From Bacteroidales bacterium (lineage in GTDB: Bacteria; Bacteroidota; Bacteroidia; Bacteroidales; Muribaculaceae): a stretch of DNA of 54,272 nt. Every line of letters begins with the position of its first letter. Positions within the stretch are counted from its first letter, which is position 1. The stretch lies in the NCBI GenBank assembly GCA_030524805.1, contig JAUNFY010000012.1:1-54272 (forward strand). The letters are read 5' to 3'. The notes below the pieces were generated by a model. It worked only from the letters and a program-made list of their open reading frames with translations. It had not been told where the DNA came from and did no database searches. Position numbers and translations under genes: made by a program. Of this stretch, positions 1,921-54,272 are shown in pieces.

Positions 1921-2307
1921 ATGGAAAATGAAAAATTCTCATTCAGGAAGCGTCTGAGGTCGTTTGGCTATGCCTTCGAGGGAATCGGACGGTTGCTGCG
2001 CGACGAGCACAATTCGCGGATACATGTCGCGGTGATGATTGCCGTGGTGACCGCCGGCTTCGCGTTCGGCATTACGGCCATGGAATGGTGCGTGGTGACG
2101 ATATGCTTCGGCGTGGTGCTGATGGCGGAGGCTATGAATTCGGCGGTAGAGGCGATAGCCGACCTCGTGATGCCGGAGCGGCATCCGCTGATCAAGAAAG
2201 CCAAGGACGTGGCTGCTGCCGGGGTGCTGATGGCGGCGATGGCGTCGGCCACGGCGGGACTGGTCATTTTCCTTCCCTACGTTATTGAAATCATAAAGAA
2301 CATATAG
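1921..2307 (+). CDS. dgkA: Diacylglycerol kinase, DgkA family
   Basis: This 128-residue integral membrane kinase phosphorylates diacylglycerol, or in some bacteria undecaprenol, recycling lipid carriers. The length fits the small trimeric DgkA family. The family signature is visible around residues 75-95: A-E-A-M-N-S-A-V-E-A-I-A-D-L, with the Glu and Asn used for ATP and metal binding. Three hydrophobic helices follow an amphipathic N-terminal stretch that starts with F-R-K-R. The ATG at 1921 is the only sensible start because homologues begin with the same N-terminal pattern. It leads the plus-strand group with aroQ, 26 bp downstream. Its last codons contain the first copy of a short repeat that recurs in the gap and in the start of aroQ. 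Confidence 0.9.
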   Translation: MENEKFSFRKRLRSFGYAFEGIGRLLRDEHNSRIHVAVMIAVVTAGFAFGITAMEWCVVTICFGVVLMAEAMNSAVEAIADLVMPERHPLIKKAKDVAAAGVLMAAMASATAGLVIFLPYVIEIIKNI

Positions 2308-2351
2308 AAAGAACTTCATATAATCATAAAGCAATGATAGCGATCATAAAT
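2290..2351 (+). repeat. ATCATAAAG repeat spanning the dgkA end and aroQ start
   Basis: ATCATAAAG occurs at 2290-2298 (last codons of dgkA) and 2323-2331 (gap), and as ATCATAAAT at 2343-2351 (codons 4-6 of aroQ). It belongs to the window-wide set of degenerate gap repeats. Confidence 0.55.
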
Positions 2352-2771
2352 GGCCCGAACCTGAACATGCTGGGGCGCCGCAATCCCGGAGTGTATGGCG
2401 TAAAATCGTTTGAGGAATTCCTTCCGGAGGCCGAGCGGCTGACGCGTGAGCTCAGCGGGGGCAGCGAGACATTGGAATATTACCAGTCGAACAGCGAGGG
2501 AGAGCTCGTTGGGATAGTGCAGCGGCTTGCATTCGACCCTACCTGCCACGGGATAGTGATCAATCCCGGCGCTTACGCTCATTATTCCTACGCGCTTCGC
2601 GATGCCGTGGAGATGGTGGAGTCGCCGGTGATTGTGGTGCATATCTCCAACATCCATGCGCGCGACGAGTTCCGGCATAAAGACGTGATAGTGCCGGTGA
2701 GCAAGGGAACGATATGCGGCCTCGGGCTTGACGGCTATCTGCTGGCGCTGCGGCATCTGATCCAAAATTGA
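2334..2771 (+). CDS. aroQ: Type II 3-dehydroquinate dehydratase
   Basis: This enzyme converts 3-dehydroquinate to 3-dehydroshikimate in the cytoplasmic shikimate pathway. At 145 residues it has the normal type II length. The N-terminal motif I-I-N-G-P-N-L-N-M-L-G-R-R is followed by G-V-Y-G, which contains the catalytic Tyr. Further on are N-P-G-A-Y-A-H-Y-S, the segment V-V-H-I-S-N with the catalytic His, and the anion-binding segment that ends in R-D-E-F-R. ATG at 2334 is chosen because the family motif begins almost immediately. It follows dgkA closely and precedes an O-methyltransferase. In related Bacteroidales aroQ often sits beside xerD and pyruvate kinase; here xerD is about 6 kb away and no pyk is present. 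Confidence 0.95.
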   Translation: MIAIINGPNLNMLGRRNPGVYGVKSFEEFLPEAERLTRELSGGSETLEYYQSNSEGELVGIVQRLAFDPTCHGIVINPGAYAHYSYALRDAVEMVESPVIVVHISNIHARDEFRHKDVIVPVSKGTICGLGLDGYLLALRHLIQN

Positions 2772-2819
2772 GCATCATATATTCAAATCCAACATTGAAT
2801 ATTCAACATTCAACATTAA
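2760..2819 (+). repeat. TCCAACATT-type repeat after aroQ
   Basis: ATCCAAAATTGA at 2760-2771 contains the last codons and stop of aroQ. Near-copies follow at 2787-2798 (ATCCAACATTGA), 2801-2812 (ATTCAACATTCA) and 2809-2819. The gap to the next gene is otherwise only about 20 bp. Confidence 0.65.
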
Positions 2820-2829
2820 AAATTATCCA

Positions 2830-8857: not shown

Positions 8858-8884
8858 CCATGAGGTGTGTATTTCAATCGTAGG

Positions 8885-8947
8885 GAAGCGACATTTGGAT
8901 GAATGGAAGCAGCATATAGAAGAGAGTAAGCGACATGGAGATGAGCA
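8885..8947 (+). repeat. Three 21-bp tandem units running into the xerD start
   Basis: Degenerate units start at 8885, 8906 and 8927, exactly 21 bp apart, each of the form (G/T)AAGC-(G/A)-(A/G)-CAT followed by a purine-rich tail. The third unit contains the xerD start codon at 8935. Confidence 0.65.
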
Positions 8948-9840
8948 TAAGGGAATATGAGTCGTATCTGACGCTTGAGCGGGGCATGGCCGACAACACG
9001 CGCGAGGCATACGTGTCGGACGCGTGCCGACTGATGGAATTTCTCGATGAAAAGGGGATAAAACTGGAGGATGCCACGGAGGAAAACCTTCATGAATTTC
9101 TCTGCACGCTGCGCGATCTCGGCATCGGTCCGCGGAGTCAGGCAAGGGTTCTGTCGGGGGTGAAAAGCTATTTCAAATTTCTGAAATTATCCGGTTTCAT
9201 CGGGCAAAATCCCACCGACCTGTTGGAATCGCCGAGGCTCGGGCGGTATCTGCCCGAGGTGCTGAGCATTCAGGAGATAGACAACATGATAGGATGTATC
9301 GACGACGCCAAGGAAGAATCGTTGCGCAACCATGCCATCATCGAGACGCTCTACGGGAGCGGTCTGCGGGTGTCGGAACTGACCGACGCGCGGCTCTCGC
9401 GCATCAATATGGAGGATGGCTATATGATAGTGGAAGGAAAGGGAAGCAAGCAGCGGATCGTGCCGGTGTCGCCGACTGCCCTCTCCCTCATCAAGGAATA
9501 TCTGCCTCAGAGGGCCCGGCTCAATATCAAGCCCGATTCGCAAGACATACTGTTTCTTAACCGCCGCGGCTGCAAGATGACGCGGGTGATGGTGTTCTAC
9601 ATCATCAGGGATCTCGCGGCTGCCGCCGGGATATTGAAGAAAGTGTCGCCGCACACATTGCGCCATTCCTTCGCTACTCATCTGCTCGAAGGGGGAGCGT
9701 CGTTGCGCGTCATTCAGGAACTGCTTGGTCACGAGTCGTTGGAAACCACGGAGATATACGTGCATCTCGACCGCTCGCGCCTGCGCGAGGAATTGCTCTC
9801 ACACCATCCGCATTACCGCCACCGCGAGGGAAAGATGTAG
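8935..9840 (+). CDS. xerD: Tyrosine recombinase XerD
   Basis: This 301-residue recombinase resolves chromosome dimers at dif together with XerC. Residues 1-100 form the SAM-like core-binding domain (I-R-E-Y-E-S-Y-L-T-L-E-R-G). The catalytic domain shows the full tyrosine-recombinase set: Arg145 in G-S-G-L-R-V-S-E-L, His240 and Arg243 in H-T-L-R-H-S-F-A-T-H, His266 in L-L-G-H-E-S-L, and nucleophile Tyr275 in T-E-I-Y-V-H. Length and context match a housekeeping XerD rather than an integrase: no attachment sites, excisionase or phage genes are visible. The start at 8935 is supported by the N-terminal family pattern. A single-gene transcript is possible. Confidence 0.9.
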   Translation: MEMSIREYESYLTLERGMADNTREAYVSDACRLMEFLDEKGIKLEDATEENLHEFLCTLRDLGIGPRSQARVLSGVKSYFKFLKLSGFIGQNPTDLLESPRLGRYLPEVLSIQEIDNMIGCIDDAKEESLRNHAIIETLYGSGLRVSELTDARLSRINMEDGYMIVEGKGSKQRIVPVSPTALSLIKEYLPQRARLNIKPDSQDILFLNRRGCKMTRVMVFYIIRDLAAAAGILKKVSPHTLRHSFATHLLEGGASLRVIQELLGHESLETTEIYVHLDRSRLREELLSHHPHYRHREGKM

Positions 9841-10007
9841 CCGGCCGATACATTTGCGTGTCTTGATTGTTGTAGTTCATATCCGTGCGGTGATAAAAAC
9901 GATATCCGGCAAGGACGATGATATCAGGCAATGACCGATATCAAGAATGATATCAAGAAAGAAAAACTATATCAAGTAAGGAACTATATACACTATATCA
10001 AGATATT
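9841..10007 (+). repeat. GATATCAAG repeat cluster in the leader of the DUF389 gene
   Basis: Six degenerate copies of (G/T)ATATC-A-A-G-N-A-A-G start at 9901, 9920, 9937, 9949, 9968 and 9994; the last ends 5 bp before the start codon at 10008. GATATC itself is palindromic. No TAnnTTTG promoter or other gene was found in this 167-bp gap. Confidence 0.7.
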
Positions 10008-14021: not shown

Positions 14022-14134
14022 GGCGCAGGCATGTTGCAAGGCTCCGATATATTAAAAAATGGAGCGGAGAGCGGCTTGGCAGCCTGACAACAAGCAAAAG
14101 AAAATCAAACAAGGAAAATCATAACAAACAGACA

Positions 14135-17068: not shown

Positions 17069-20000
17069 ATGACAGAACGACGGAAACTTGTGATGGCTAC
17101 CAACAATGCCGGAAAACTCCGCGAGGCCCGCGCCATAGCCGGCGGGCGCCTTGAGATATTGAGTCTTGACGACATAGGCTACCATCAGGATATAGAAGAG
17201 ACTGCCGACACACTGAGCGGCAACGCGCTGATAAAGGTGCGTGCCATCAAGGCTGTGACGGATCTCGATGTCTTCGCCGACGACACGGGGCTGATAGTGG
17301 ATGCCCTCGACGGCGCACCCGGGGTACATACCGCCCGCTATGCCGGCGAGGCGTGCGATCCCGACGCCAACATGGACCTCCTGCTGAGGAATATGGAAGG
17401 GGTGGCCGACCGGAGGGCCCGGTTCGCCACGTGCATAGCCCTCTCGCACAACGGCGGGGAATATCTCTTTGAGGGCACAGCCGAGGGGAGCATAGCCCGG
17501 GAACGCAGCGGAAGCCACGGCTTCGGCTACGACCCTGTGTTCATATCGGAAGAGACGGGAAAATGCTTCGCCGAGATGAGCGATGAGGAAAAAAACGGAA
17601 TCTCACACCGCGGACGCGCGCTGCGGGCCATGATGAAATGGCTCGGGGCACTGTGCGTGGCGCTGATGGCCATATTGCCGGCAAAGGCGGCTTCCTCGGC
17701 CGACTGGGCACTCTACAACACATTCGACGATAAGGTGGAATACGTGTTCGACACCGAATCGAAGACCTACTTCCTGGTGCAGGCGCAGGCCTACGACCCG
17801 GCGTCGGTCGACAACCAGGATAAACTCTGCTTTCTCTTCACCCTCGACAAGGAGAGCGATGAGCTGCGCCCCTACAACAGCCAGAACTTCCTGTCGGAGT
17901 CGCTGATACGCACTGCATACTATAATGCCGAGAAGCGGTATCTGCTGATAGTCTATAGCGACATGATGATCGACATGCTCTACGACAACGGCGACGTGTA
18001 TCCCATTCATGCGCTGAAGAATTTCACGACTTCATCTACAAAGGAAGTGAGGTCGATATCGTTTGATCCGGCACGCAGCAGGGCGTATCTCGCCACCGAT
18101 TTCGGATATGTGGAGATCAACGACGACAAGCATGAGGTGGCGGCAAGCGGCGTGTTCGGCCGTCCGATCGACCGCATGGTGAGGGCCGGCGACTTCCTGC
18201 TGGCAACGATGGACGGCAAACTCTACCGCGACGACATCGACTCCCCCAACAGGTTGCTTTCCGACTTCGTGGAGACCGACTGGGCCGGCGGCGACGAGGT
18301 GATGAACCTCGTGGCGCTCGGCACCGACCGCTGCCTGATGACGAAAAACAACGGCGGAAGCGAGGATTTTTATATCCTCACTTTCAGGCCGGGAACGGTG
18401 ACGCCGGTGGCCACACCCATAGGTGGTCTCGGAGGCGCCTCGATAGTGGAAAACAAGCAGGGACTGCTTCTCGGACGCAACTCCCAGATAATAGGAATCG
18501 ACCGCACCACAGGGGAGCGCGATGTGGTTAGCCGCCGGGCGGAAGACTACGCGGTGGCCGTGGGCTCGTGGGATATGCGCGACGTTTACTACATGAAGTC
18601 GCGCGAAGGATATTATTCGCTCCGCAGGGGGAGCGACGGAGGCTGGAGCGTGACGCGCGACGTGGCGCGTCCGGATGCTCCGGCAGCCTTCCGCAGCAAC
18701 TTCATGCGCTATCTGCCCGACTACGGCATGATGGTGAACAGCCACGGCACCGACAGGAATTTCACCACGCACACCGCGCCCAACCCGATCTTGCTCTCAT
18801 CGTGGAAAAACAACGTCTGGACGCCGCTCGGCGTGCCGTATCTGGCCGCCAACCAGCGCTTCCGGCTGGTGAATCCCTGCGGCTTCGCGCAGGATCCCGA
18901 CAATCCCGACGTGTTTTATTTCGGGTCGGTGCTCAACGGCCTTCTGCGCTACAACGTGAAGGACTTCTCGTCGCTGCTCCATGTGACCCGCAGCAACGAC
19001 ACCCCCGACTATCCGGGCCACGTGTCGGCCCATGAGCCTTACTCGCGGTGGCCGACGGCATTTATAATGATGAATCCGCGTTTCGACAGGAACGGGAATC
19101 TGGTGGTGGCGCATATCAACACCAACGCCAAGGACGACAAATCATACACGGCTGAAATCTGGATGTGGACGCCGGAGAACCGCCGGGCATCCGTGTCGCC
19201 GGAAACCTACCGGCCTTTCAAGGCACTGAAAGTGAACGGCCCGACGCCGGCGAAGTCGGTGCTGGCCCTGCCGCTTGAGTCGGCTGCTGCGCGCAACATG
19301 GTGGTATATTTCGCGATAAACGACTACAACGAACCGTTTGCAGTCTACGACCATAACGGCACTCCCGAAGACGAGAACGACGACCGCCAGACGCTGCTGA
19401 GCTCGCTGCGCGACCAGGACGGCACCGTGAGCTACAACTACATTTATTGCGCCGTGGAAGACCCGCAGACCGGTCTGGTGTGGGTGGGCACCAACAACGG
19501 AGTGTTCACGATGAATCCGGCGCAGCAATTCAGCGAGGCAGGAGTGGTGAGCCGCATCAAGGTGAGCCGCAACGACGGGACATCGCTCGCCGACTATCTG
19601 CTCGACGGAATCGGGGTGAACGACATATCGATCGACGGCAGCGGCCGGAAATGGTTCTCACTCGGCGGAGGCGGCATTGTGTGCACGTCGGCCGACGGGC
19701 GGACCATACTTCAGGAAATCACATCAGACAACTCGATGCTTCCCTCCGACAACGTGTATGCGTCGGCCTACGACCCGTCGCGCAATTCGATGATGCTCTC
19801 CACCGAGGCCGGGCTCTGCGAATATTTCCTCAGCGGCAGCGCCGGAGGAGGCTCTGGGTCGAGTGTGAGGGCATATCCCAATCCGGTGAGACCGGACTAC
19901 TACGGCTGGGTCACTATCGACGGCCTCGACGAGGACTGCATAGTGAAGATCACCGACTCGGCCGGCAACATAGTGCGCGAGCTCGGAAGCGCGTCGGGCG

Positions 20001-20134
20001 GTCAGGTGCAATGGGACGCCTGCAACTCACGGCTTGAAAAGGTGGCGAGCGGCGTCTATTTCGTGCTTGCCTCTTCGGGCCCCGGCGGAGGCAGCTTCAG
20101 CGAGAAGACAAAAATACTCGTGGTCAAAGACTGA
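17069..20134 (+). CDS. RdgB (XTP/dITP pyrophosphatase) fused in frame to a PorZ-like T9SS protein
   Basis: One 1021-residue frame joins two normally separate proteins. Residues 1-187 are a complete RdgB/HAM1 pyrophosphatase, which removes ITP and XTP from the nucleotide pool: A-T-N-N-A-G-K at the start, F-A-D-D-T-G-L, G-F-G-Y-D-P-V-F and S-H-R-G-R-A-L near the end. Residues 188/189 are two Met codons (17630 and 17633) followed by a typical signal peptide (M-K-W-L-G-A-L-C-V-A-L-M-A). The remainder, about 834 residues, looks like PorZ: beta-propeller repeats and a C-terminal sorting domain (A-Y-P-N-P-V-R, then S-G-V-Y-F-V-L). PorZ is a surface subunit of the PorU-V-Q-Z attachment complex. The two halves need different compartments, so internal initiation at 17630/17633 or lost stop codon are the main alternatives. 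Confidence 0.85.
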   Translation: MTERRKLVMATNNAGKLREARAIAGGRLEILSLDDIGYHQDIEETADTLSGNALIKVRAIKAVTDLDVFADDTGLIVDALDGAPGVHTARYAGEACDPDANMDLLLRNMEGVADRRARFATCIALSHNGGEYLFEGTAEGSIARERSGSHGFGYDPVFISEETGKCFAEMSDEEKNGISHRGRALRAMMKWLGALCVALMAILPAKAASSADWALYNTFDDKVEYVFDTESKTYFLVQAQAYDPASVDNQDKLCFLFTLDKESDELRPYNSQNFLSESLIRTAYYNAEKRYLLIVYSDMMIDMLYDNGDVYPIHALKNFTTSSTKEVRSISFDPARSRAYLATDFGYVEINDDKHEVAASGVFGRPIDRMVRAGDFLLATMDGKLYRDDIDSPNRLLSDFVETDWAGGDEVMNLVALGTDRCLMTKNNGGSEDFYILTFRPGTVTPVATPIGGLGGASIVENKQGLLLGRNSQIIGIDRTTGERDVVSRRAEDYAVAVGSWDMRDVYYMKSREGYYSLRRGSDGGWSVTRDVARPDAPAAFRSNFMRYLPDYGMMVNSHGTDRNFTTHTAPNPILLSSWKNNVWTPLGVPYLAANQRFRLVNPCGFAQDPDNPDVFYFGSVLNGLLRYNVKDFSSLLHVTRSNDTPDYPGHVSAHEPYSRWPTAFIMMNPRFDRNGNLVVAHINTNAKDDKSYTAEIWMWTPENRRASVSPETYRPFKALKVNGPTPAKSVLALPLESAAARNMVVYFAINDYNEPFAVYDHNGTPEDENDDRQTLLSSLRDQDGTVSYNYIYCAVEDPQTGLVWVGTNNGVFTMNPAQQFSEAGVVSRIKVSRNDGTSLADYLLDGIGVNDISIDGSGRKWFSLGGGGIVCTSADGRTILQEITSDNSMLPSDNVYASAYDPSRNSMMLSTEAGLCEYFLSGSAGGGSGSSVRAYPNPVRPDYYGWVTIDGLDEDCIVKITDSAGNIVRELGSASGGQVQWDACNSRLEKVASGVYFVLASSGPGGGSFSEKTKILVVKD
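17630..20134 (+). CDS. porZ: Probable internal start giving a separate PorZ-like protein
   Basis: This is the downstream half of the fused frame, read from ATG 17630 or 17633. It would give a protein of about 833-834 residues with a cleavable signal peptide (hydrophobic core L-G-A-L-C-V-A-L-M-A-I-L-P, then A-K-A-A), two beta-propeller-like regions, and a type IX sorting domain at the end. That is close to the size of PorZ proteins. PorZ is exported through the Sec and then type IX route and binds anionic LPS. The internal start has no recognisable ribosome-binding site, as is normal for Bacteroidetes. Annotated separately because a signal peptide buried behind a cytosolic enzyme could not work in the full-length product. 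The symbol is by domain layout, not by confirmed orthology. Confidence 0.55.
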   Translation: MMKWLGALCVALMAILPAKAASSADWALYNTFDDKVEYVFDTESKTYFLVQAQAYDPASVDNQDKLCFLFTLDKESDELRPYNSQNFLSESLIRTAYYNAEKRYLLIVYSDMMIDMLYDNGDVYPIHALKNFTTSSTKEVRSISFDPARSRAYLATDFGYVEINDDKHEVAASGVFGRPIDRMVRAGDFLLATMDGKLYRDDIDSPNRLLSDFVETDWAGGDEVMNLVALGTDRCLMTKNNGGSEDFYILTFRPGTVTPVATPIGGLGGASIVENKQGLLLGRNSQIIGIDRTTGERDVVSRRAEDYAVAVGSWDMRDVYYMKSREGYYSLRRGSDGGWSVTRDVARPDAPAAFRSNFMRYLPDYGMMVNSHGTDRNFTTHTAPNPILLSSWKNNVWTPLGVPYLAANQRFRLVNPCGFAQDPDNPDVFYFGSVLNGLLRYNVKDFSSLLHVTRSNDTPDYPGHVSAHEPYSRWPTAFIMMNPRFDRNGNLVVAHINTNAKDDKSYTAEIWMWTPENRRASVSPETYRPFKALKVNGPTPAKSVLALPLESAAARNMVVYFAINDYNEPFAVYDHNGTPEDENDDRQTLLSSLRDQDGTVSYNYIYCAVEDPQTGLVWVGTNNGVFTMNPAQQFSEAGVVSRIKVSRNDGTSLADYLLDGIGVNDISIDGSGRKWFSLGGGGIVCTSADGRTILQEITSDNSMLPSDNVYASAYDPSRNSMMLSTEAGLCEYFLSGSAGGGSGSSVRAYPNPVRPDYYGWVTIDGLDEDCIVKITDSAGNIVRELGSASGGQVQWDACNSRLEKVASGVYFVLASSGPGGGSFSEKTKILVVKD

Positions 20135-20209
20135 TGTTACCGACTCTCGCGATCAAATACCGATATTCGTGATAAAAAAACGATACCACAGATATTCGTA
20201 ATCAAAGAC
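20113..20209 (+). repeat. Repeat of the PorZ 3' end in the gap before trmB
   Basis: ATACTCGTGGTCAAAGAC at 20113-20130 encodes the last codons of the PorZ half before the stop. Degenerate copies follow at 20143-20160, 20163-20181 and 20192-20209; the last differs at only two positions or so. TrmB starts at 20214. Confidence 0.65.
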
Positions 20210-20213
20210 AGAT

Positions 20214-20966
20214 ATGGGAAAGAACAAACTGCAGAAATTCGCGGACATAGCGGCAATGAAATGCGTGCTGGAATATCCGAGGCATATACTGATAGAGGAA
20301 GGGTTTCCCTACAAGGGAAGCTGGAACGGCGAATTTTTCCGTCGCCCCAATCCGATCACCCTCGAGCTCGGTTGCGGCAAGGGGGAATACACCGTGGGGC
20401 TCGCCCGCGCCAACCGCGACCGCAACCATGTGGGAGTGGACATCAAGGGGGCACGCCTCTGGAAAGGGGCCGGCGATGTGGAGCGCGAGGGGCTTGACAA
20501 CGCGGCATTCCTGCGCACCGAGATAGAGCAGATAGAGCAATTTTTCGCTCCCGGCGAAGTGGACGAGATATGGATAACGTTTCCCGACCCTCAGATGCAG
20601 AAGGCTCGCAAGCGCCTCACGTCGTCTCGTTTTCTGAAATCCTACCGCACATTCCTGCGCCCAGGCGGAGTGGTTAACCTGAAGACCGACTCACCCTTCC
20701 TGTATGAATACACACGCAGGCTGGTGGAACTCAACGGCTTCGAGGTGCTGACCTGCACCGACGACCTCTATGGCAGCGGGCTTGCCGACCCCGTGGCCTC
20801 GATCAAGACCTTCTACGAGCAGCAGTGGCTCAGCCGCGGCAAGACCATCAAGCTGATATCGTTCAGGATAGGGGAGGGGGAGATAGCCGAGCCCGACTGC
20901 AGCGACCTTGAGAAAGACGACTATCACAGCGAATTCGGACGGCACGGTGGCAATTCCGGAGCGTGA
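20214..20966 (+). CDS. trmB: tRNA (guanine-46-N7)-methyltransferase
   Basis: TrmB makes m7G46 in the variable loop of tRNAs, using SAM. The protein has 250 residues, the normal size. The SAM loop is L-E-L-G-C-G-K-G-E-Y-T-V near residue 53, followed by the acidic strand V-G-V-D-I-K-G-A-R. The family-specific motif W-I-T-F-P-D-P-Q-M near residue 120 is intact, followed by R-L-T-S-S-R-F-L-K-S-Y. The last ~25 residues are acidic and poorly conserved. The start at 20214 fits the conserved N-terminus (K-N-K-L-Q-K-F). It lies 79 bp after the RdgB-PorZ frame and 96 bp before mrp, all in the same direction. Confidence 0.95.
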   Translation: MGKNKLQKFADIAAMKCVLEYPRHILIEEGFPYKGSWNGEFFRRPNPITLELGCGKGEYTVGLARANRDRNHVGVDIKGARLWKGAGDVEREGLDNAAFLRTEIEQIEQFFAPGEVDEIWITFPDPQMQKARKRLTSSRFLKSYRTFLRPGGVVNLKTDSPFLYEYTRRLVELNGFEVLTCTDDLYGSGLADPVASIKTFYEQQWLSRGKTIKLISFRIGEGEIAEPDCSDLEKDDYHSEFGRHGGNSGA

Positions 20967-22222: not shown

Positions 22223-22249
22223 AAGGTTATTAGGTTATAAGGTTAGTAA
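22223..22249 (+). repeat. AGGTTAT triplet upstream of panB
   Basis: AAGGTTAT at 22223, TAGGTTATA at 22231 and AGGTTAGTAA at 22240 form three short degenerate tandem copies, about 9 bp apart, 23 bp before the panB start. Confidence 0.55.
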
Positions 22250-24222: not shown

Positions 24223-24266
24223 AAATTCATCTCCAAAATCATCTTTAAAACCAAACTCATCTGAAA
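24223..24266 (+). repeat. AANTCATCT triplet upstream of the Fur gene
   Basis: AAATTCATCTCCAAA at 24223, AAAATCATCTTTAAA at 24235 and AAACTCATCTGAAA at 24253 are three degenerate copies, ending 1 bp before the start codon at 24268. Confidence 0.6.
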
Positions 24267-31639: not shown

Positions 31640-31686
31640 CTGTCGGTCTCGCTTCGCCCCGGAACTTTTTAAGATTGAGCGCAGAA

Positions 31687-31728
31687 GCTGATTCCCCGGC
31701 TGCCTTTCGGCATTGCTGGGGAATCAGC
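31687..31728 (+). terminator. Long hairpin downstream of the barrel gene
   Basis: An 11-bp perfect stem (31687-31697 with 31718-31728) encloses TGCC (31701-31704) and GGCA (31709-31712). It is 48 bp after the stop codon. The absence of a T-rich tail makes the terminator call uncertain; a structured RNA element is possible. Confidence 0.45.
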
Positions 31729-31861
31729 GCGTATGGCCGCGGATGCGTTAAGCCCCCAATGCGGTGGCGGAGGGCTTTATCTGACTATTATTTTGCGGCG
31801 GGAGGGGAGCGTATGTTGGAAAAATATTGGGGGCGGTGGGTGAGGTTAGAGAAATTTTTTA

Positions 31862-31869
31862 TAATTTTG
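31862..31869 (+). promoter_or_regulatory. Possible -7 box upstream of the CE7 esterase
   Basis: TAATTTTG at 31862-31869 matches the -7 consensus, but no good -33 TTTG lies 19-21 bp upstream. If used, the whole repeat array at 31898-31993 would be in the mRNA leader. Confidence 0.45.
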
Positions 31870-31897
31870 CAGAATGGGGAGGGATACATCAAATTTT

Positions 31898-32010
31898 AAT
31901 CGGAACTGAAACTATAGTCGGAACTGAAAATTTTAAGCGGGACTGAGATTTGATAATCGGAACTGAAAAATTTTTTAAGCAGAACTGAAATATACCATGA
32001 AACTGAGAAA
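31898..32010 (+). repeat. Five to six CGGAACTGAAA repeats running into the esterase start
   Basis: Degenerate copies of (A)TCGGAACTGAAA start at 31898, 31916, 31935, 31955 and 31977, about 18-22 bp apart, separated by T-rich spacers. The gene itself starts with a similar ATGAAACTGAGAAA at 31997, as if it were the sixth unit. Confidence 0.75.
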
Positions 32011-33310: not shown

Positions 33311-33409
33311 AGCCGGCATGCAAGGCATCGGCAGAAAAAGCACGCACGCTAAGAAACACGCAGGCGAAGAAAGAAAAAGAATGATGTTTTGCATTTTGCG
33401 GCTTAATTG

Positions 33410-39281: not shown

Positions 39282-40045
39282 ACTTGATCGAGGTGATAGA
39301 GGTAATATTGATTGCCGTATTGGTATTGAATTGGAAATGGATCGGCTTCGTGCTGTTCTTTCCATTGGCAAGGATGCAGTCGGCCCGTGAGCGGGCGCGA
39401 TATGCGTCGGAGCAGGAGGGGAAGAGTCCGCGCAGCGGTGTAGGAGAAGAGACTTCCGAGCCGGAGTGCGCTCCTCAGGCATCGCGCGGCATCAAATCGC
39501 TCATAGCTCCGCTGGCGCAGGGATATATAAGATGGATGACGTATGAAACCGGCAAATTGCCGTCGCATCATCTGCGCAATTTCATCTACAGGCATGTCCT
39601 TCTTGTTGATCTTGCGGAGAAGGCCACAATCTATCATGGCGCCGATATCCGTTCGGGCGCGAAACTGCACATAGGGAAGGGTAGCATCATAGGCGACAAC
39701 TCCGTGCTCGACGCGCGCAACGGGATAGAGATAGGGCGAGATGTCAATTTCTCGAGCGGCGTGCAGATCTGGACCGAACAGCACTCTCACGCCGACCCCT
39801 ATTTCAGATGCCTCAGCGACCGGAGCTACCGGGTGAGGGTGGAAGACCACGCATGGATTGGGCCGCGGGTGATAGTGCTTCATTCGGTGACGATAGGCAA
39901 GGGCGCTGTTGTCGCGGCGGGGGCCGTGGTGACGAAAGATGTGGAGCCATACTCGATAGTGGCCGGCATCCCGGCGAGAAAGATAGGGGAGAGGAATCAT
40001 GATTTGAGATATGAATTGAAAGGCGAGCACCTGTCGTTCTTATAA
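39278..40045 (+). CDS. Left-handed beta-helix acetyltransferase with a hydrophobic N-terminal anchor
   Basis: The protein has 255 residues. Residues 5-30 are hydrophobic (V-I-E-V-I-L-I-A-V-L-V-L), followed by a polar linker (about 36-72) rich in Glu, Ser and Pro, probably disordered. From about residue 115 onward the hexapeptide-repeat fold is visible: I-Y-H-G-A-D-I-R-S-G-A-K-L-H-I-G-K-G and V-T-I-G-K-G-A-V-V-A-A-G-A-V-V-T-K-D. The end (S-I-V-A-G-I-P-A-R-K-I-G) is typical of WbbJ/maltose-acetyltransferase-like enzymes. It likely O-acetylates a sugar of the repeat unit. The anchor suggests it works at the inner membrane. Its 3' end is repeated in the following gap. Confidence 0.8.
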   Translation: MNLIEVIEVILIAVLVLNWKWIGFVLFFPLARMQSARERARYASEQEGKSPRSGVGEETSEPECAPQASRGIKSLIAPLAQGYIRWMTYETGKLPSHHLRNFIYRHVLLVDLAEKATIYHGADIRSGAKLHIGKGSIIGDNSVLDARNGIEIGRDVNFSSGVQIWTEQHSHADPYFRCLSDRSYRVRVEDHAWIGPRVIVLHSVTIGKGAVVAAGAVVTKDVEPYSIVAGIPARKIGERNHDLRYELKGEHLSFL

Positions 40046-40114
40046 GAGTAAGAGCCCTGTCGTTCTTATACGTTCAATACGTTCTTATGGAGGTATGATT
40101 TTATAGAGGTATGA
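40031..40114 (+). repeat. Duplicated stop-end and start-end sequences between two acetyltransferase genes
   Basis: CGTTCTTAT occurs at 40035 (last codons and stop of the upstream gene), 40061 and 40080. GAGGTATGA occurs at 40090 and 40106, the second including the next start codon at 40111. Both gene ends are thus repeated inside one 65-bp gap. Confidence 0.7.
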
Positions 40115-40707
40115 AAAGAAGATTGATCATAATGATTCTCTATACGCCCCTGTATCTGTTTTTCATGATGCACGGGACGAGGATATTGCGGCGCGAGGTC
40201 GGCGACTGGCTTAAGGTGTTGCCGCTTCCCGACTGGCAAGGATGCTACACCGGAGCGATCGAACTGATGAGCCGCTTCCCGGAGTTCATATTCCTGTTGT
40301 ATTACCGCTACGGCATCAATGAGTTCAACCCGATAAGGCTCATCTACCGTGCGCAGCAGATGTCGATGACATGCCCGAAAGTGGGCGAGGGCCTCGTGAT
40401 CCAGCATGGGTTCGGGACTCGGATCGGCTGCGCGGAGATGGGAAGGAACTGCCAGGTGTGGCAGGGAGTGACGATAGGCAAGAAGAAAAGCGGCATCGAC
40501 GAGCCGCGTCCGGTGATTGGCAACAATGTGAAGATATGTGCCAACGCGATGGTACTGGGCGGAATAACGATAGGCGATGGCGCCACGATAGGAGCCGCTT
40601 CGGTGGTGCTGAAATCAGTGCCGGCGGGGGCAGTCGTGGCTGGCAATCCGGCGCGTATCATCCGCGGGCCCGGCGCTGAAAAGGGCGGCGGAAAAGAGGA
40701 AGCATGA
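40111..40707 (+). CDS. Serine-acetyltransferase-like (LbH_SAT) enzyme
   Basis: This 198-residue protein has a short N-terminal helical part (residues 1-75) with a hydrophobic patch and then a left-handed beta-helix: I-Q-H-G-F-G-T-R-I-G-C, V-W-Q-G-V-T-I-G-K-K-K, V-I-G-N-N-V-K-I-C-A-N-A and G-D-G-A-T-I-G-A-A-S-V-V. The end V-A-G-N-P-A-R-I-I-R-G is the CysE-type cap. The family includes serine acetyltransferase, but within a glycan locus a sugar O-acetyltransferase is more likely. It is shorter than CysE (~270), without its N-terminal hexamer domain. Confidence 0.78.
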   Translation: MKRRLIIMILYTPLYLFFMMHGTRILRREVGDWLKVLPLPDWQGCYTGAIELMSRFPEFIFLLYYRYGINEFNPIRLIYRAQQMSMTCPKVGEGLVIQHGFGTRIGCAEMGRNCQVWQGVTIGKKKSGIDEPRPVIGNNVKICANAMVLGGITIGDGATIGAASVVLKSVPAGAVVAGNPARIIRGPGAEKGGGKEEA

Positions 40708-40817
40708 AAAAAAGGGAAGAGGGAAAGAATGAAACAATAAAGAAGCATAACGAAACGTTGTTTTAATGGCGTGGCATATCCGTATGCCCGCAGAGAAGAT
40801 AGATTTTATAATCCGAC
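40708..40817 (+). promoter_or_regulatory. Gap with a short hairpin before the DUF1972 glycosyltransferase
   Basis: The gap starts with an A-rich, GAA-repetitive stretch. A hairpin of GGCATA (40773-40778) and TATGCC (40783-40788) with a 4-nt loop lies 30 bp before the next start codon. No promoter box was found. Confidence 0.35.
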
Positions 40818-46460: not shown

Positions 46461-46489
46461 AAGATAAATAACAGTTTCGCAAGATAAAT
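46461..46489 (+). repeat. AAGATAAAT duplicate upstream of rfbD
   Basis: AAGATAAAT occurs at 46461-46469 and at 46481-46489, 20 bp apart, the second directly before the rfbD ATG at 46491. Only 31 bp separate the two genes. Confidence 0.5.
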
Positions 46490-46490
46490 C

Positions 46491-47360
46491 ATGAATATAC
46501 TGGTGACAGGCGCAAACGGCCAACTTGGCAACTGCATGCGCAACGCTTCGGCCGGAAGCGAAGACAATTATATTTTCACCGATGTGGCAGAGCTCGACAT
46601 CACCGATGCCGGGGCTGTGGCGCGGATGGTGAAAGACCGCGATGTGAAGGTGATAGTGAACTGCGCGGCCTACACCAACGTAGACAAGGCGGAATCCGAC
46701 GCCGAATTTGCCGAAGTGCTCAACGCAAAGGCCGTGAGGAATCTCGCCGACGCCGTGAAAGCCAACGACGGCACTCTCGTGCATGTCTCGACCGACTATG
46801 TGTTTGGCGGCTCCACGGGTAACACCCCAAGAGGGGAGGACGAGCCTGCCAGCCCTACGGGAGTGTATGGCCTGACCAAATTGCATGGCGAGCAGCAGAT
46901 CGCGGAGTCGGGAGTGAAGGCGCTGATAATCCGCACGGCGTGGCTCTACAGCGAATATGGCCGTAACTTCGTGAAGACGATGCTGGGGCTGACGGCCTCG
47001 AAGCCCGCGCTTAAAGTGGTGTTCGACCAGGTGGGAACCCCTACCTACGCGCAAGACCTCGCCGACGCTATCTTCGGCATTATCGAAGGCCGCAAGCTCG
47101 ACGGCAACGAAGGAATCTACCATTACTCCAACGAGGGGGTATGCTCATGGTTCGACTTCACGAAGATGATAGCGAAGATGGCCGGCAACGACGGATGCGA
47201 CATCCAGCCCTGCCACAGCGACGAGTTCCCCTCGCCGGTGGTGCGTCCCTCCTATTCGGTGCTCGACAAGACAAAGATCAAGGCTACGTTCGGACTTAGG
47301 ATTCCGTACTGGACCGAATCTCTCGAGAAATGCCTGATGAATCTGGAAGCTGAAAACTGA
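46491..47360 (+). CDS. rfbD: dTDP-4-dehydrorhamnose reductase
   Basis: RfbD reduces dTDP-4-keto-L-rhamnose to dTDP-L-rhamnose. The 289-residue protein starts with the Rossmann motif I-L-V-T-G-A-N-G-Q-L-G-N. Family markers follow: C-A-A-Y-T-N-V-D-K-A-E near residue 65, H-V-S-T-D-Y-V-F-G-G near 105, and the catalytic Y-G-L-T-K-L-H-G-E near 128. R-T-A-W-L-Y-S-E-Y-G is also typical. The length is normal. It is separated from rfbC by three glycosyltransferases and from rfbB by the HexNAc dehydrogenase. Confidence 0.96.
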   Translation: MNILVTGANGQLGNCMRNASAGSEDNYIFTDVAELDITDAGAVARMVKDRDVKVIVNCAAYTNVDKAESDAEFAEVLNAKAVRNLADAVKANDGTLVHVSTDYVFGGSTGNTPRGEDEPASPTGVYGLTKLHGEQQIAESGVKALIIRTAWLYSEYGRNFVKTMLGLTASKPALKVVFDQVGTPTYAQDLADAIFGIIEGRKLDGNEGIYHYSNEGVCSWFDFTKMIAKMAGNDGCDIQPCHSDEFPSPVVRPSYSVLDKTKIKATFGLRIPYWTESLEKCLMNLEAEN

Positions 47361-47388
47361 CACCGGAAAGTAGAAAGTTGATGTAAAA

Positions 47389-50006: not shown

Positions 50007-50365
50007 GATGAATTCGGTAGTTTGGCCGGAATTCATTCGGTAATTTGGCGCATTTTTATTCGGTAATTTGGCTGGATTTTATTCGGTGGTTTGGCCGGAA
50101 TGCGGGAGAATGTGGGAGAGTGGACGGGAGTGGGCTGTGGGGTGCAACCCCATCCTGGGTTGCTGACATGTGGGTGTTGGGAGCCGGGGGTGGTACCCCC
50201 GGTTAACAAAATGTAAGGCCTCCGGCCTTACTGCTTTGGGGGCGCATTATTCGGGACGGCATTCTATTCAGTAATTTGGCCGGAATTTATTCGGTAATTT
50301 GGCGCATTTTCGTTCGGTAGTTTGGCCGGTTTTCATTCGGTAGTTTGGCGTAGTTAGGTTGGGAT
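50007..50365. repeat. 23-bp phased repeat arrays around a three-hairpin element (copy A)
   Basis: This 359-bp gap has no gene. Two blocks of four ATTCGGTARTTTGGC units start at 50012, 50035, 50058, 50081 and at 50266, 50289, 50312, 50335, always exactly 23 bp apart; 15 bases are conserved and 8 vary. Between them lies an element with three inverted repeats: GCAACCC/GGGTTGC (50144-50163), CCGGGGGT/ACCCCCGG (50184-50202) and GTAAGGCC/GGCCTTAC (50213-50231). Read on the minus strand, the last hairpin is followed by ATTTTGTT and could terminate the DUF4143 gene. Confidence 0.85.
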
Positions 50366-51649
50366 TCAGTCTTTGAGACATCCGATTGGAACGACAAGCA
50401 CTCCGTCTTCTCTCTTGAAGGCGTAATCGCCGGTTGCAGTCAGCACCATCAGGAAAGATGGTTTCTTCATTTTGTCAGTGTCTATTTTATCAGCCAATGC
50501 CTGAAGGGTTGACGCTCCTTCATTTATGAGTTTGTCGCCGCCCAGTTTTATTTCGATCAGTCCGTATCTGCCGTCGCGCAAGTGAATCACTGCATCGCAT
50601 TCCAGTCCGTTTTTATCACGGTAGTGATAAACATTGCCATTGAGTGCTTCAGCATACGTGCGCAGGTCGCGAATACACAAAGTCTCGAAAATCAAACCGA
50701 AAGTGTTAAGGTCAGATATGAGGTCGTTAGGTCCGATGCCCATAGCGGCGGTCGCGATGGAGGGATCGGTGAAATATCTGGTGTCGGAAGTGCGTATGGC
50801 TGTCTTTGACCTTAGATTAGGATTCCAGGCCTCTACGTCTTCTATGACAAATATATTTTTAAGGGCTTTGATATACGACGCCAGGGTGTCGGCATCAAAT
50901 GACTCACCTTCATTTTCTATAAGGTCTTCCCTGATTGCCGCGTTGGTGACCTGACCACCTTGATGTCGAGCGTAAGAGCGTAGCAATCGGTGAACTCTCG
51001 CCGGGTTTCTTGCCACGCCGTCAACTCTCTGGATGTCGCGGTGTTCTACAGCCTCAATGTAGTCGAATGCCTGATCGAGAGCTATATCCTCGCTCATGTC
51101 GATAGCCGAAGGCCAGCCGCCACGACATGTGAGGAAAGCCATTCGCGGCAAATCGATATGTGAAATGCCTGCAATGTCGAGATTTCCATCAAATATGTCG
51201 GAGAGGGACACGTCGCCGGTAGAGTCGCCTGATTCCCACAGCGACATGGGGCGCATGCGCAACCATCCGAATCTGCCGGTTCCGCTGTGAATTATCTGGC
51301 TCATGTCGGGAGGTACGGAAGAACCGGTCAGTATAAACAAACCCAAGCTATGGCGATGGTCGGCCTCAAATCTTATGGAGTCCCATAGCTGTGGGGCAAT
51401 CTGCCATTCATCGATCAGGCGAGGGTTTTCACCTTGCAGAAGCAGCTGAGGGTTGAGAGATGCCAACTGAATGTTTTGCTCCGTCTTTCCGGATTCCGAC
51501 ATATACAATATGCTCTTTGCCTGTTGCTCGGCGGTAGTGGTTTTGCCGCACCATTTGGCACCTTCTATCAGTACGGCCCCTTTGCCTTTGAGCTTGCGTT
51601 GAAGAATCTTGTCGGCAATTCTCGGCCTGTATTCGTATAAATCATCCAT
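50366..51649 (-). CDS. AAA_14/DUF4143 ATPase with a PD-(D/E)XK-like C-terminus
   Basis: The protein has 427 residues from ATG 51649. Walker A is E-G-A-K-W-C-G-K-T-T-T near residue 28 and Walker B is R-L-I-D-E-W-Q near residue 85, followed by L-T-G-S-S-V-P-P. The C-terminal DUF4143 part has E-C-D-A-V-I-H and G-L-I-E-I-K-L-G, a typical D...ExK nuclease-like core. These proteins are frequent, often multicopy, in Bacteroidales, and their role is unknown. The gene is AT-richer than neighbours and lies between two direct copies of the hairpin element, with a -7 box just upstream (51677-51670). It has no functional partner nearby. Confidence 0.88.
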   Translation of the reverse strand: MDDLYEYRPRIADKILQRKLKGKGAVLIEGAKWCGKTTTAEQQAKSILYMSESGKTEQNIQLASLNPQLLLQGENPRLIDEWQIAPQLWDSIRFEADHRHSLGLFILTGSSVPPDMSQIIHSGTGRFGWLRMRPMSLWESGDSTGDVSLSDIFDGNLDIAGISHIDLPRMAFLTCRGGWPSAIDMSEDIALDQAFDYIEAVEHRDIQRVDGVARNPARVHRLLRSYARHQGGQVTNAAIREDLIENEGESFDADTLASYIKALKNIFVIEDVEAWNPNLRSKTAIRTSDTRYFTDPSIATAAMGIGPNDLISDLNTFGLIFETLCIRDLRTYAEALNGNVYHYRDKNGLECDAVIHLRDGRYGLIEIKLGGDKLINEGASTLQALADKIDTDKMKKPSFLMVLTATGDYAFKREDGVLVVPIGCLKD

Positions 51650-51669
51650 GATCAACAAGTTTAGATTGC

Positions 51670-51677
51670 AAAGATAA
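51670..51677 (-). promoter_or_regulatory. Possible -7 box of the DUF4143 gene
   Basis: On the minus strand, TATCTTTG (51677-51670) matches the -7 consensus about 20 bp before the start codon at 51649. No convincing -33 box is found; the upstream sequence is the 23-bp repeat. Confidence 0.45.
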
Positions 51678-51693
51678 TGCTTTTATTTTAAAA

Positions 51694-51955
51694 TTCGGTA
51701 ATTTGGCCGGATTTTATTCGGTGGTTTGGCCGGAATGCGGGAGAATGAGGGAGAGAGGACGGGAGAGGGCTGTGGGGTGCAACCCCATCCGGGGTTGCTG
51801 ACATGGGGTGTTCGGAGCCGGGGGTGGCAAGCACCCCCGGTTAACAAAATGTAAGGCCTCCGGCCTTACTGCTTTGGGGCGGAGTTAGTAGCGCGTTGGC
51901 AACGCACTGAATCCAATTTAGCGCCTCCGGCCTTACTGCTTTTGGGGGTGGCGCG
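51694..51955. repeat. Second copy (B) of the repeat and three-hairpin element
   Basis: Two 23-bp units start at 51694 and 51717. They are followed by a copy of the element seen at 50058-50241, in the same orientation and nearly identical. Hairpins are GCAACCCC/GGGGTTGC (51780-51799), CCGGGGGTG/CACCCCCGG (51819-51841) and GTAAGGCC/GGCCTTAC (51852-51870). A partial third hairpin copy lies near 51922-51945. The copies differ from A mostly in loops, and stem 1 stays paired although its sequence changes. The end is adjacent to the AgcS stop, so it may act as its terminator. Confidence 0.85.
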
Positions 51956-53356
51956 TTATTCGGGCCAGCATTCTGTCTTGGTGGAGATTTCGGGGATGGT
52001 GGTGCGGTGATAGGTCGGGTCGTTGCCTGCCTTGCGCTGCGCGGTGTAGTCTTTCAGGAGGATCATGGCATATTTGCCGAGCATGATGATGGCGGCAAGA
52101 TTGCATAGCGTCATGAGCCCCATGAACACGTCGGCAAGCGCCCATACGATGTTGAGCGAGGTGATGGCTCCCATCATCACCATCGCGCCTACAAGCAGAC
52201 GATAGGCCGTCACAGGCCATTTCTTATCAGTGATAAACTGTATGTTGGTTTCCCCGTAATAGTAGTTGGCGATAATGCTGGTGTAGGCGAAAAAGAAAAC
52301 GGCAATCGCCACGAAAGCCGATCCGAGCGCCCCGACCTCGGCCTCAAGTGCCGACTGGGTGAGCGCGATGCCGTTGTCGCCGCAGTAAGCCTTGCCGCTG
52401 AGCAGGATGATGAAAGCAGTGCATGAGCATATCAGCAGGGTGTCGGTGAAGACGCCGAGGGTCTGGAGCAATCCCTGCTTCACGGGGTGGGATACGGAAG
52501 CGGTGGCGGCCACGTTAGGCGCCGATCCCTCTCCGGCCTCGTTGCTGAAGAGTCCGCGCTTGATGCCCATCATCAAGGCTCCCCCGATGCCGCCACCAAG
52601 CACGGCGGTGCCGGTGAAAGCCTCGCGGAAGATCATCGACACCACGTCGGGAAGCACTTCATGGTTGATTATGATTACGGCGACGGCAAGCAGCAGATAG
52701 GCGACAGCCATCAGGGGGACCACAATCTCGCTGAGGCGCGAGATACGCTGTATGCCTCCGAATATCACCATGAGGGTGAGGACTGTGACCACAATGCCGA
52801 CAACGAGCGGATTCCAGCCAAACGACACTTCAAGAGCCATGGCAATGGTGTTTGACTGCACCGAATTGAATGCGAAACCGAACGTGAGGGTGATGAGGAC
52901 GGCAAAGATCACTCCCCACCATCGTTTGCCGAGCCCTTTCTCGATGTAGTAGGCCGGGCCGCCCTTGAAGCTGTTTTTCCCTCTTGTCTTGAAGAGCTGG
53001 GCGAGCGTAGACTCCACGAATGCCGATGCAGAACCTATCACGGCTATCACCCACATCCAGAATACGGCGCCGGCCCCACCGACGGCTATGGCCGTGGCCA
53101 CGCCGGCCAGATTGCCTGTGCCCACACGCGAGGCGATGGAGACAGCGAAAGCCTGGAAGGAGCTGATGTTGTGGTGCGAGTCGCGTTTGCCGTCGCCGGC
53201 TTTCTTGCCCGATCCGGCAAGCAGCCGCAGCATTTCGCCGGCCATGCGGAATTGCATGCCGCGGCTCCTGACCGTAAACCAGAGCGCCGCGCCAATCAGC
53301 AGGGCAATCAGCAGATAGCCCCACAGCCAGGTGTTGATAGTGTCGATGATGCTCAT
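51956..53356 (-). CDS. Sodium:alanine symporter, AgcS family
   Basis: This 466-residue inner-membrane protein has about 10-11 TM helices and takes up alanine or glycine with sodium. Family motifs are visible: S-I-A-S-R-V-G-T-G-N-L-A-G-V-A-T-A near residue 75, G-G-P-A-Y-Y-I-E-K-G-L-G near 130 and F-S-N-E-A-G-E-G-S-A-P-N-V-A-A-T near 275. The length is standard. It follows rsmA by 40 bp on the same strand, with no promoter between, so the two are likely one transcript. The exact amino acid (Ala, Gly or another) cannot be decided. Confidence 0.92.
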   Translation of the reverse strand: MSIIDTINTWLWGYLLIALLIGAALWFTVRSRGMQFRMAGEMLRLLAGSGKKAGDGKRDSHHNISSFQAFAVSIASRVGTGNLAGVATAIAVGGAGAVFWMWVIAVIGSASAFVESTLAQLFKTRGKNSFKGGPAYYIEKGLGKRWWGVIFAVLITLTFGFAFNSVQSNTIAMALEVSFGWNPLVVGIVVTVLTLMVIFGGIQRISRLSEIVVPLMAVAYLLLAVAVIIINHEVLPDVVSMIFREAFTGTAVLGGGIGGALMMGIKRGLFSNEAGEGSAPNVAATASVSHPVKQGLLQTLGVFTDTLLICSCTAFIILLSGKAYCGDNGIALTQSALEAEVGALGSAFVAIAVFFFAYTSIIANYYYGETNIQFITDKKWPVTAYRLLVGAMVMMGAITSLNIVWALADVFMGLMTLCNLAAIIMLGKYAMILLKDYTAQRKAGNDPTYHRTTIPEISTKTECWPE

Positions 53357-53396
53357 GATAACAATGATAAAGCCCCGCGTTGCGGAAACCGCACGT

Positions 53397-54203
53397 TCAG
53401 TTGGAGAGGCGGGCGGTGAGGTCGATGAACTGCTGGACAGATAGCTGTTCGGGACGTTGCTTCAGGATGGGGTCGTCGAGGAGCGGACTGCCCTGAGGTA
53501 TCATTCCGGAGAGTGAGTTGCGCAGTGTCTTGCGGCGCTGGCCGAAGGCTGTCTTCACCACGGTCTTGAATTTCTTCTCGTCTACTCCGAGCGATTCGCG
53601 GCCGTTGCGCACGAGGCGCAGCACTCCGCTTCTCACTTTGGGCGGCGGGGAGAAGACGCCGGGCTCGACGGTGAAGAGGTATTCGCAGTCGTACCATGCC
53701 TGGAGAAGCACCGACAGGATGCCATACACCTTCGAGCCGGGGCCGGAGCAGATTCTTTCGGCCACTTCCTTTTGGAGCATGCCGGCTATGACGGGAATCT
53801 TTTCCTTATAGTCGAGCGCCTTGAAGAATATCTGCGACGAGATGTTGTAGGGATAGTTGCCGATCAGGGCAAACTCCCCTTCAGTCAGCCCGTCGAGGTC
53901 GAGCTTGAGGAAGTCGGCTTCCACCACTTTCAGGCCGGGGTTATGGCGGTGAAGGTAATCGACGCTCTCGGTGTCGATCTCGATGGCCGTGACATCCCTG
54001 CCGGCGGCCACGAGGAAATTGGTGAGCACACCCATTCCCGGGCCAATCTCCACCACGGGCATGCGCCCGTAGGCCTCGGCGAGTTCGGCGCCGCATGCAG
54101 CCTGCAGTTTGTCGGCTGAGATGGTGTCTGCGATTCTCTCGGCAGTGTGGAGGTCGGTGAGGAAATGCTGCCCCAGCGCCTTTTTTGCTCTTACTTCTTT
54201 CAT
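53397..54203 (-). CDS. rsmA: 16S rRNA adenine dimethyltransferase
   Basis: RsmA (KsgA) dimethylates A1518 and A1519 of 16S rRNA during 30S maturation. The protein has 268 residues, the usual size. The N-terminus K-A-L-G-Q-H-F-L-T-D is the family hallmark, followed by the SAM loop E-I-G-P-G-M-G-V-L-T near residue 52. The catalytic motif IV, N-Y-P-Y-N-I-S-S, is near residue 118, and P-P-P-K-V-R-S follows. ATG 54203 is the natural start. The 69-bp upstream region at the window edge holds short repeats. Confidence 0.95.
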   Translation of the reverse strand: MKEVRAKKALGQHFLTDLHTAERIADTISADKLQAACGAELAEAYGRMPVVEIGPGMGVLTNFLVAAGRDVTAIEIDTESVDYLHRHNPGLKVVEADFLKLDLDGLTEGEFALIGNYPYNISSQIFFKALDYKEKIPVIAGMLQKEVAERICSGPGSKVYGILSVLLQAWYDCEYLFTVEPGVFSPPPKVRSGVLRLVRNGRESLGVDEKKFKTVVKTAFGQRRKTLRNSLSGMIPQGSPLLDDPILKQRPEQLSVQQFIDLTARLSN

Positions 54204-54209
54204 AAGCCC

Positions 54210-54272
54210 GTGTGGTTATAATTCCGGTGAGGTTGTATGTGTGAGGTTACAGTTATATACAATGCAGTTATA
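54210..54272 (-). repeat. GTGAGGTT-type repeats upstream of rsmA
   Basis: GTGTGGTTATA at 54210, GTGAGGTTGTA at 54227 and GTGAGGTTACA at 54241 are three degenerate copies. CAGTTATA at 54250 and 54265 is a further pair. The array continues to the window edge, so its full extent is not visible. Confidence 0.55.

Follow-up and report, generated by a model that had tools for sequence, protein, structure and literature searches.

Degenerate direct repeats in the intergenic gaps of a Muribaculaceae bacterium and their possible origin by local duplication at gene junctions

Repeat arrays in the window

The stretch of DNA analyzed here, referred to as the window, is the 54,272-nucleotide contig JAUNFY010000012.1 (C81) of a Bacteroidales bacterium of the Muribaculaceae (GCA_030524805.1; G000), which has a fragmented assembly of 2.91 Mb in 128 contigs and is 95% complete. 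Many gaps between its genes hold a few degenerate copies of a short word in direct orientation, which we call an array. Genes were taken from a list of open reading frames (ORFs) and a hexamer-based caller built for this analysis; the predicted starts are rough, which affects results on 5′ ends most. The repeat score of a gap came from its strongest ungapped match to itself in direct orientation, with spacings of 5–80 bp allowed, and was compared with dinucleotide-preserving shuffles of the same gap. Gaps <25 or >400 bp, gaps containing N and spacings <5 or >80 were excluded before counting, and significance mostly refers to p ≤ 0.01. With 400 shuffles per gap, 12 of the 32 testable gaps of the window were significant at p ≤ 0.01, where about 0.3 were expected, and 15 at p ≤ 0.05, leaving 17 without repeat excess even at the looser threshold. 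An earlier version of the scan (200 shuffles, spacings up to 120) gave 11/32 and 15/32. This part of the original observation is confirmed. An Rfam scan of the window gave no match at gathering scores, and a tRNA scan of it found none.

Several arrays incorporate the end of the upstream gene. This was scored with a swap test, in which the last 18 nt of each gene are matched to its own gap and compared with ends reassigned randomly (20 permutations). A 29-bp array at 26218–26306 (p = 0.002, score 34; swap score 10) begins in the last codons of the gene at 24716–26242, and Tandem Repeats Finder (TRF) reports period 29, 2.9 copies and 79% matches at 26221–26303. The gap itself (26243–26312) is convergent, since the next gene (26313–27725, DUF6057) lies on the minus strand, so no downstream start is present there. 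At 20114–20228, CG(T)GATCAAA-type copies run from the upstream gene end through the gap into the next gene (p = 0.002; swap score 11). At 40030–40114 the gene end CCTGTCGTTCTTATA is copied exactly over 15 bp at lag 26 and is followed by a lag-16 pair containing the next start codon (p = 0.002; swap score 15). The copying of gene 3′ ends noted originally at 2760, 20113, 26222 and 40035 is confirmed, with swap scores of 10, 11, 10 and 15, and an upstream gene end copied at lag 25 (40690–40737; p = 0.018 with edges, swap score 10) is an extra case. Copies of GAAGCTGAAAACTGA at 7-bp spacing lie across a stop codon at 47339–47381 and are detected only when gene edges are included (p = 0.002 with, p = 0.39 without). 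A weak pair beginning AATCATAAAG (2289–2340, lag 33, score 11) spans a stop and the aroQ-side start; of the claim that 2290–2351 reuses both edges, the 3′ end finds support in a swap score of 9, while the pair taken alone stays at p = 0.054 with edges.

Start codons lie within arrays at 8884–8954 and 40078–40114, as had been proposed, and also at 20114–20228, but not at 31997, where the best array ends at 31973. The first of these consists of three copies at 21-bp spacing, the last across the start codon at 8935 (p = 0.002 with edges), and in G005 the genes at this junction overlap without a gap. Five copies of TCGGAACTGAAA at ~20-bp spacing occupy 31891–31994 (TRF; p = 0.002), and GATATCA-type copies with a best lag of 48 occupy 9895–9989 (p = 0.002); both words lack a match elsewhere. 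The regular spacings described originally were recovered as lags of 21 at 8884–8954, 29 at 26218–26306 and 39 (~2 × 19.5) at 31914–31973. A 21-bp pair, AGGG(GC/AT)GGAGGTGATAAAAAG, with lag 19 and a minus-strand gene on either side (27765–27804; p = 0.002) was absent from the original list. The remaining arrays are an AACAAG pair at lag 19 (14089–14130; p = 0.01, 0.026 with edges), 8-bp copies of AGGTTAT(T/A) (22224–22245; p = 0.005, 0.024 with edges), weak AAATCATCT copies at lag 12 (24223–24253; p = 0.0175, 0.044 with edges), a CACGCACGCTAAGAAA pair at lag 16 (33335–33372; p = 0.0224, 0.012 with edges) and a weak AAGATAAAT pair at lag 20 (46461–46489; p = 0.0025, 0.076 with 25-nt edges).

The statement that each gap has a different word fails for two regions of the window with words that recur elsewhere. 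One is a 7-bp ATTCAAC array at 2779–2825 (gap 2772–2829; p = 0.002), flanked by co-directional genes, at a junction that has no gap in G004 and G096. The other is 50012–51955, where the dispersed word ATTCGGTAATTTGGC forms two 23-bp arrays (50012–50349; TRF and word matching) and the dispersed GC-rich element GCCTCCGGCCTTACTGCTTT occurs as a pair (51848–51946; word matches elsewhere), all outside the private class. The ATTCGGTAATTTGGC minisatellite is present at 50012–50119, 50257–50349 and 51690–51770, with the GC-rich GCCTCCGGCCTTACTGCTTT element in between, and an array of G096 (L258:6413–6738) contains the minisatellite word in the form ATTCAGTAATTTGGC.

Repeat excess and gene-end reuse across the genome

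In the ~0.69 Mb of G000 that was examined, 54 of 293 gaps, roughly one in six, were significant at p ≤ 0.01 (42/261 outside the window). A smaller first sample gave 52/288 gaps beyond dinucleotide shuffles and 49/288 beyond trinucleotide shuffles, against 11/288 and 4/288 in matched coding segments. Equal frequency in shuffled gaps had been named as the result that would overturn the original prediction, and shuffles do not reproduce the repeats. Chance was accordingly rejected by both kinds of shuffle, by coding segments and by other genomes, and the original observation is largely real. By orientation, significant gaps numbered 25/133 and 19/98 among the two co-directional classes, 6/28 among convergent and 2/29 among divergent gaps.

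Words shared among many loci would likewise have spoken against the prediction. When 52 significant arrays were matched against 679 kb of the genome, 40 had a word without a match elsewhere (E ≤ 0.01) and 12 were matched, compared with 7 of 260 shuffled queries. The shared words include the ATTCAAC and AACCATA heptamers and the GC-rich element of 51848–51946; the view that the repeats are not a dispersed mobile element is therefore upheld for the 40 private words and not for the other 12. Spacing is a multiple of seven in 11/54 significant gaps. The other 43 have spacings between 6 and 67 bp, with 32 falling within 12–30 bp, and 15 of the 43 are divisible by three, as expected without a reading-frame constraint. 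Copy identity, measured in 34 arrays, ranges from 0.67 to 1.0 with a median of 0.83. A-enrichment reached a paired p of 0.045 within gaps but is not array-specific (p 0.63 against array-free gaps). The supply of stop codons was rejected as a function because G000 shows no strand excess of them (21 gaps vs. 18), the excess in G005, G012, G014 and G096 being slight (19 vs. 11).

In the swap test, 10 of 287 gene 3′ ends of G000 scored ≥10 against their own gap, where 1.5 were expected and the permutation maximum was 5. Reuse of 5′ ends was weaker (10/289; 3.1 expected, permutation maximum 6). At the same score, G005 and G012 together gave 6/57 3′ ends (0.35 expected) and 1/53 5′ ends (0.8 expected), and 3′ ends in other genus members (1/142; 0.85 expected) and in other families (1/90; 0.75 expected) were near expectation. 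An exact 19-bp duplication is present at a gene start at L043:1579–1620.

Junction length at orthologous gaps

Relatives were represented by one genome per species, the closest to G000 being 81–85% identical in secDF, and for junction length the flanking proteins were aligned and the distance was taken between the aligned residues closest to the junction. The comparison covered 202 pairs of orthologous junctions, with an array on one side only in 57, on both in 16 and on neither in 129. The side with the array was longer in 53 of the 57 pairs, by a median of 69 bp, and at 27 of 29 distinct junctions. For length-matched array-free junctions the median excess over the ortholog was just 11.5 bp, and 26 of the 29 array junctions lay above their own control (p 4e-5). 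Since the controls gain far less, regression to the mean is not the explanation, and arrays add DNA to junctions. In 13 pairs the array stands opposite a gap of <15 bp or an overlap, for example 2772–2829 compared with G004 and G096, or 8858–8934 compared with G005.

At the orthologous junctions that were inspected, the words at 2772, 8858, L040:6770, L049:10529 and L182:9704 were not found in other species. The sole G000 word shared across species at these junctions is CCTTATTTAGTCTTAA, in the divergent gap L045:6735–6890, which recurs at 22-bp spacing in G042. It resembles an operator-like conserved direct repeat, which G000 has in two copies and G042 (L233:9933–10106) in three; the stretches tested in the flanks had no Pfam match. 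Between other species some words are kept: G005 and G012, and also G005 and G014, have the same word at some gaps, and at one orthologous gap a GTTAAGR array has a different extent in G005 than in G012. The proposed role of the arrays in setting gene spacing or leader length gained no support, as both their presence and their words change between species at most orthologous gaps seen.

Distribution among lineages

Arrays are frequent in some relatives and rare in others. Significant gaps numbered 13/37 in G005, 18/28 in G012, 11/42 in G014, 6/23 in G096, 0/8 in G081 and 9/29 in G019, against 9/204 in thirteen other sampled members of the genus. Some relatives were sampled thinly (8 gaps in G081, 3 in G021). 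Six genomes of other Bacteroidales families, two others with <15 kb having been left out, gave 2/92, or 4, 3 and 2 of 92 as shuffle number and spacing limits were varied, and annotated genes of E. coli K-12 gave 1/29. The earlier version of the scan gave 8/74 for non-Bacteroidales, 7/64 for other Bacteroidales, 1/23 for more distant Muribaculaceae and 5/22 for near ones. A degenerate 21-bp GAGAAATAT array resembling those of G000 was seen in a Clostridium gap (L129:4316–4461), so such arrays occur sporadically elsewhere.

A tree built from a single gene, secDF (1239 columns), places G000 with G096 (100/99) and joins these to G081, G005, G012, G104, G014 and G100 (100/100). G019 groups with G017 (97/90), which has 0/20 significant gaps. 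The array-rich lineages are thus placed apart, and the trait arose at least two times or was lost repeatedly. The suggestion of a feature common to Bacteroidales is not borne out: one clade within the genus shows a raised frequency and so, separately, does G019. No report of the pattern for Bacteroidales was found in a literature search of open-licence papers.

The arrays also differ in kind. Multiples of seven account for the spacing in 10/13 significant gaps of G005 and 11/18 of G012, and heptamer words recur at several of their gaps, whereas 9/9 arrays of G019 have other spacings. Arrays of G005 and G012 are therefore mainly heptamers of a known kind and those of G000 and G019 mainly have other spacings, private words being established for G000.

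Other features of the window

The stretch 31648–31745 is part of an 88-amino-acid ORF (31633–31899) without a Pfam match. G000 contains 11 further matches to it, which are 75–82% identical and lie for the most part on contigs C55, C84, C83 and C77. Loci from these contigs also bear AAATCCGCG-type 10-bp dimers, nine of which are in the sampled sequence. At 17069–20134, one ORF of 1021 amino acids joins a Ham1-family NTP pyrophosphatase (residues 7–191) to a match to the PorZ N-terminal beta-propeller (residues 256–391); it may be a fusion or a frame that deserves a check.

Discussion

Many of the gaps of G000 are probably explained by short local duplications at gene junctions, which arise at a raised rate in certain lineages and subsequently decay. 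Gaps would grow by short duplications at the junction, mostly at spacings of 12–30 bp, presumably made by slipped or template-switching replication, and the copies would then decay by substitution. They would be tolerated in gaps and mostly purged from genes. Where a duplication starts inside a gene end and runs into the gap, the first stop codon would stay in place and the protein would be unchanged, which may be why the last codons of the upstream gene are often copied. The rise in rate would concern one clade within the genus and, as a separate case, G019. The spread of copy identities fits continuous birth and decay. The idea that gaps were built by duplication of their own edges and subsequent decay thus draws support from the 3′-end swap test, the extra junction length and the copy identities, within one clade and G019 and alongside ordinary shared heptamer arrays.

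Several observations weigh against this reading. Both the short spacings and the length gain that slippage would leave are present, but an excess of near-perfect young duplications is not: near-perfect adjacent duplications are no commoner in the gaps of G000 (6.1 per 10 kb) than in those of G017, G019 and G023 (11–12 per 10 kb), and of 34 best copy pairs just 2 are free of mismatches. G000 itself supplies only 5 of the 29 junctions in the length test, four longer and one shorter than the ortholog. The array at 31891–31994 keeps its core while its spacers differ, which plain duplication and decay does not favor. G005 and G012 share, without any difference, an AAGACTG array located between mgtE and mutS (L216:4389–4501, L217:9847–9945), although their mutS genes differ at 200 of 438 four-fold sites; the conserved tract extends into mutS and may be a recombination tract. 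In other families, too, 3′-end matches at a score of ≥9 exceed swaps (7/90 vs. 3.0). Finally, the baseline is above zero: in a set of diverse bacteria (69 loci, those <6 kb having been dropped, several from Bacteroidales), 16 of 226 gaps were significant, seven with a spacing that is not a multiple of seven and eight at spacing 7.

The arrays could be nothing more than decayed long simple sequence repeats of the ordinary heptamer type, in a clade rich in such arrays. The multiple-of-7 spacings of G005 and G012, the 11 such arrays of G000 with ATTCAAC and AACCATA words common to several loci, and the heptamers that make up half of the 16 hits in diverse bacteria all point that way. This is nevertheless unlikely for G000, given that other spacings prevail there and in G019, that most words are private, and that the class with other spacings occurs in 43/293 gaps of G000 compared with 7/226 in diverse bacteria (p 4e-6). 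Repeats under selection as binding sites or RNA regulatory elements, such as operators or translational control elements, would account for the CCTTATTTAGTCTTAA copies kept in G042, for the better-kept cores at 31891–31994 and for the array identical in G005 and G012. We regard such a role as quite unlikely for the arrays at large: words vary from gap to gap, the L045 gap alone shares its word among the significant G000 arrays at the inspected orthologous junctions, convergent gaps bear arrays while divergent ones hardly do, and stop codons in G000 are without strand excess. Recombination would also yield the identical array of G005 and G012, as the conserved tract runs into mutS.

A defect in DNA repair, for example loss of MutS1, has in its favor that full MutS1 was not found in G000 or in the array-rich G019, while 35 of 41 genomes of the genus are above the cut-off, and that the G019 assembly has mgtE, the usual neighbor of mutS, yet no MutS1. 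In G000, however, mgtE is missing too and the contig expected to carry mutS ends inside a repeat array, so that an assembly gap is likely and the absence was not counted as a loss. At that site (L244, the high-coordinate end of G000:C18) the contig stops inside a heptamer-type array where mutS is expected; arrays may cause assembly breaks and hence be undercounted. Moreover, the array-rich G005, G012 and G014 have MutS1 above the cut-off, so its loss is not needed, and the assemblies of G043 and G048 are without MutS1 yet have 0/12 and 1/20 significant gaps. MutL is present in 41/41 genomes of the genus and PolA is complete in G000, PolA not being found in the incomplete assemblies of G005 and G014. 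In addition, correction by MutS mainly concerns small loops of a few bases and not of 20 bp. Overall, a repair defect of this kind is a very unlikely driver of the duplications. Base composition, gene calling or assembly might be suspected of creating the repeats as an artefact, because gaps are AT-richer than genes, the gene caller was custom-made and the assembly is fragmented. Such an artefact is extremely improbable, since each gap served as its own composition control with 52 and 49 of 288 gaps persisting, the same pipeline gave few hits in other genus members, other families and E. coli K-12, and degenerate copies are unlike assembly errors.

Local duplication at gene junctions followed by decay may have a broader meaning. 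A distinct, heritable DNA-copying habit of a clade could duplicate short stretches at junctions, preferring gene 3′ ends, and so manufacture intergenic DNA and space out overlapping or abutting genes between species. The private form in G000 and G019 and the shared-heptamer form in G005 and G012 could then both result from a single polymerase or repair trait, an idea that we offer tentatively and hold to be rather doubtful. The finding matters because one can seldom watch intergenic DNA come into being in a compact bacterial genome. Here the growth of gaps by local duplication can be counted at junctions that hold tens of bp of repeats in one species and whose genes abut or overlap in another. 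The repeat-bearing gaps of G000 suggest that repeated copying of local sequence is a source of new intergenic DNA in some lineages. Identification of the cause would tie a trait of replication or repair to operon spacing and to fast turnover of gaps. Short direct repeats beside genes in such genomes are also poor evidence for binding sites.

Comparison with known repeat systems

Cyanobacterial short tandemly repeated repetitive sequences (STRR) are another class of intergenic heptamer repeat. A predominant 7-bp unit, which characterizes heptamer and STRR repeats, is found in G005 and G012 but not in G000 (11/54), and most words of G000 (40 of 52) are not reused at other loci either. According to PMC4679880, heptamer repeats (TAACTGA arrays of Beggiatoaceae and other prokaryotic long simple sequence repeats) are intergenic and tandem and may overlap the upstream stop, as here, and some Bacteroidetes carry them; they use one word of 7 bp at many loci, while most arrays of G000 have private words and 12–30 bp spacings. 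The genome-wide dispersal of sequence that marks repetitive extragenic palindromes (REP), bacterial interspersed mosaic elements (BIME) or dispersed mobile repeats is lacking for 40 of 52 words.

PMC9879509 describes the tandem repeats of archaeal Borgs, which resemble those of G000 in having locus-private words and overlapping ORF ends; one of them, a 20-nt intergenic array, occurs in one Borg but is missing from its relative. Borg units as described there are perfect, divisible by three and A-enriched, with about half of the regions in ORFs; in G000 the copies are degenerate (2/34 perfect) and concentrated in gaps, and A-enrichment is not specific to arrays. According to PMC4060949, close direct repeats, in which two short words lie no more than 50 bp apart, are in most cases commoner in intergenic regions than in Markov controls, and this is a widespread trend; the pattern here is a several-fold excess in some lineages only, in which gene ends are reused and the gain in junction length was measured. 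In PMC2884548, on small variable segments, short intergenic length variation is attributed to replication slippage from strain comparison in three species, with REP units and minisatellites included, whereas the arrays of G000 were compared through one genome per species.

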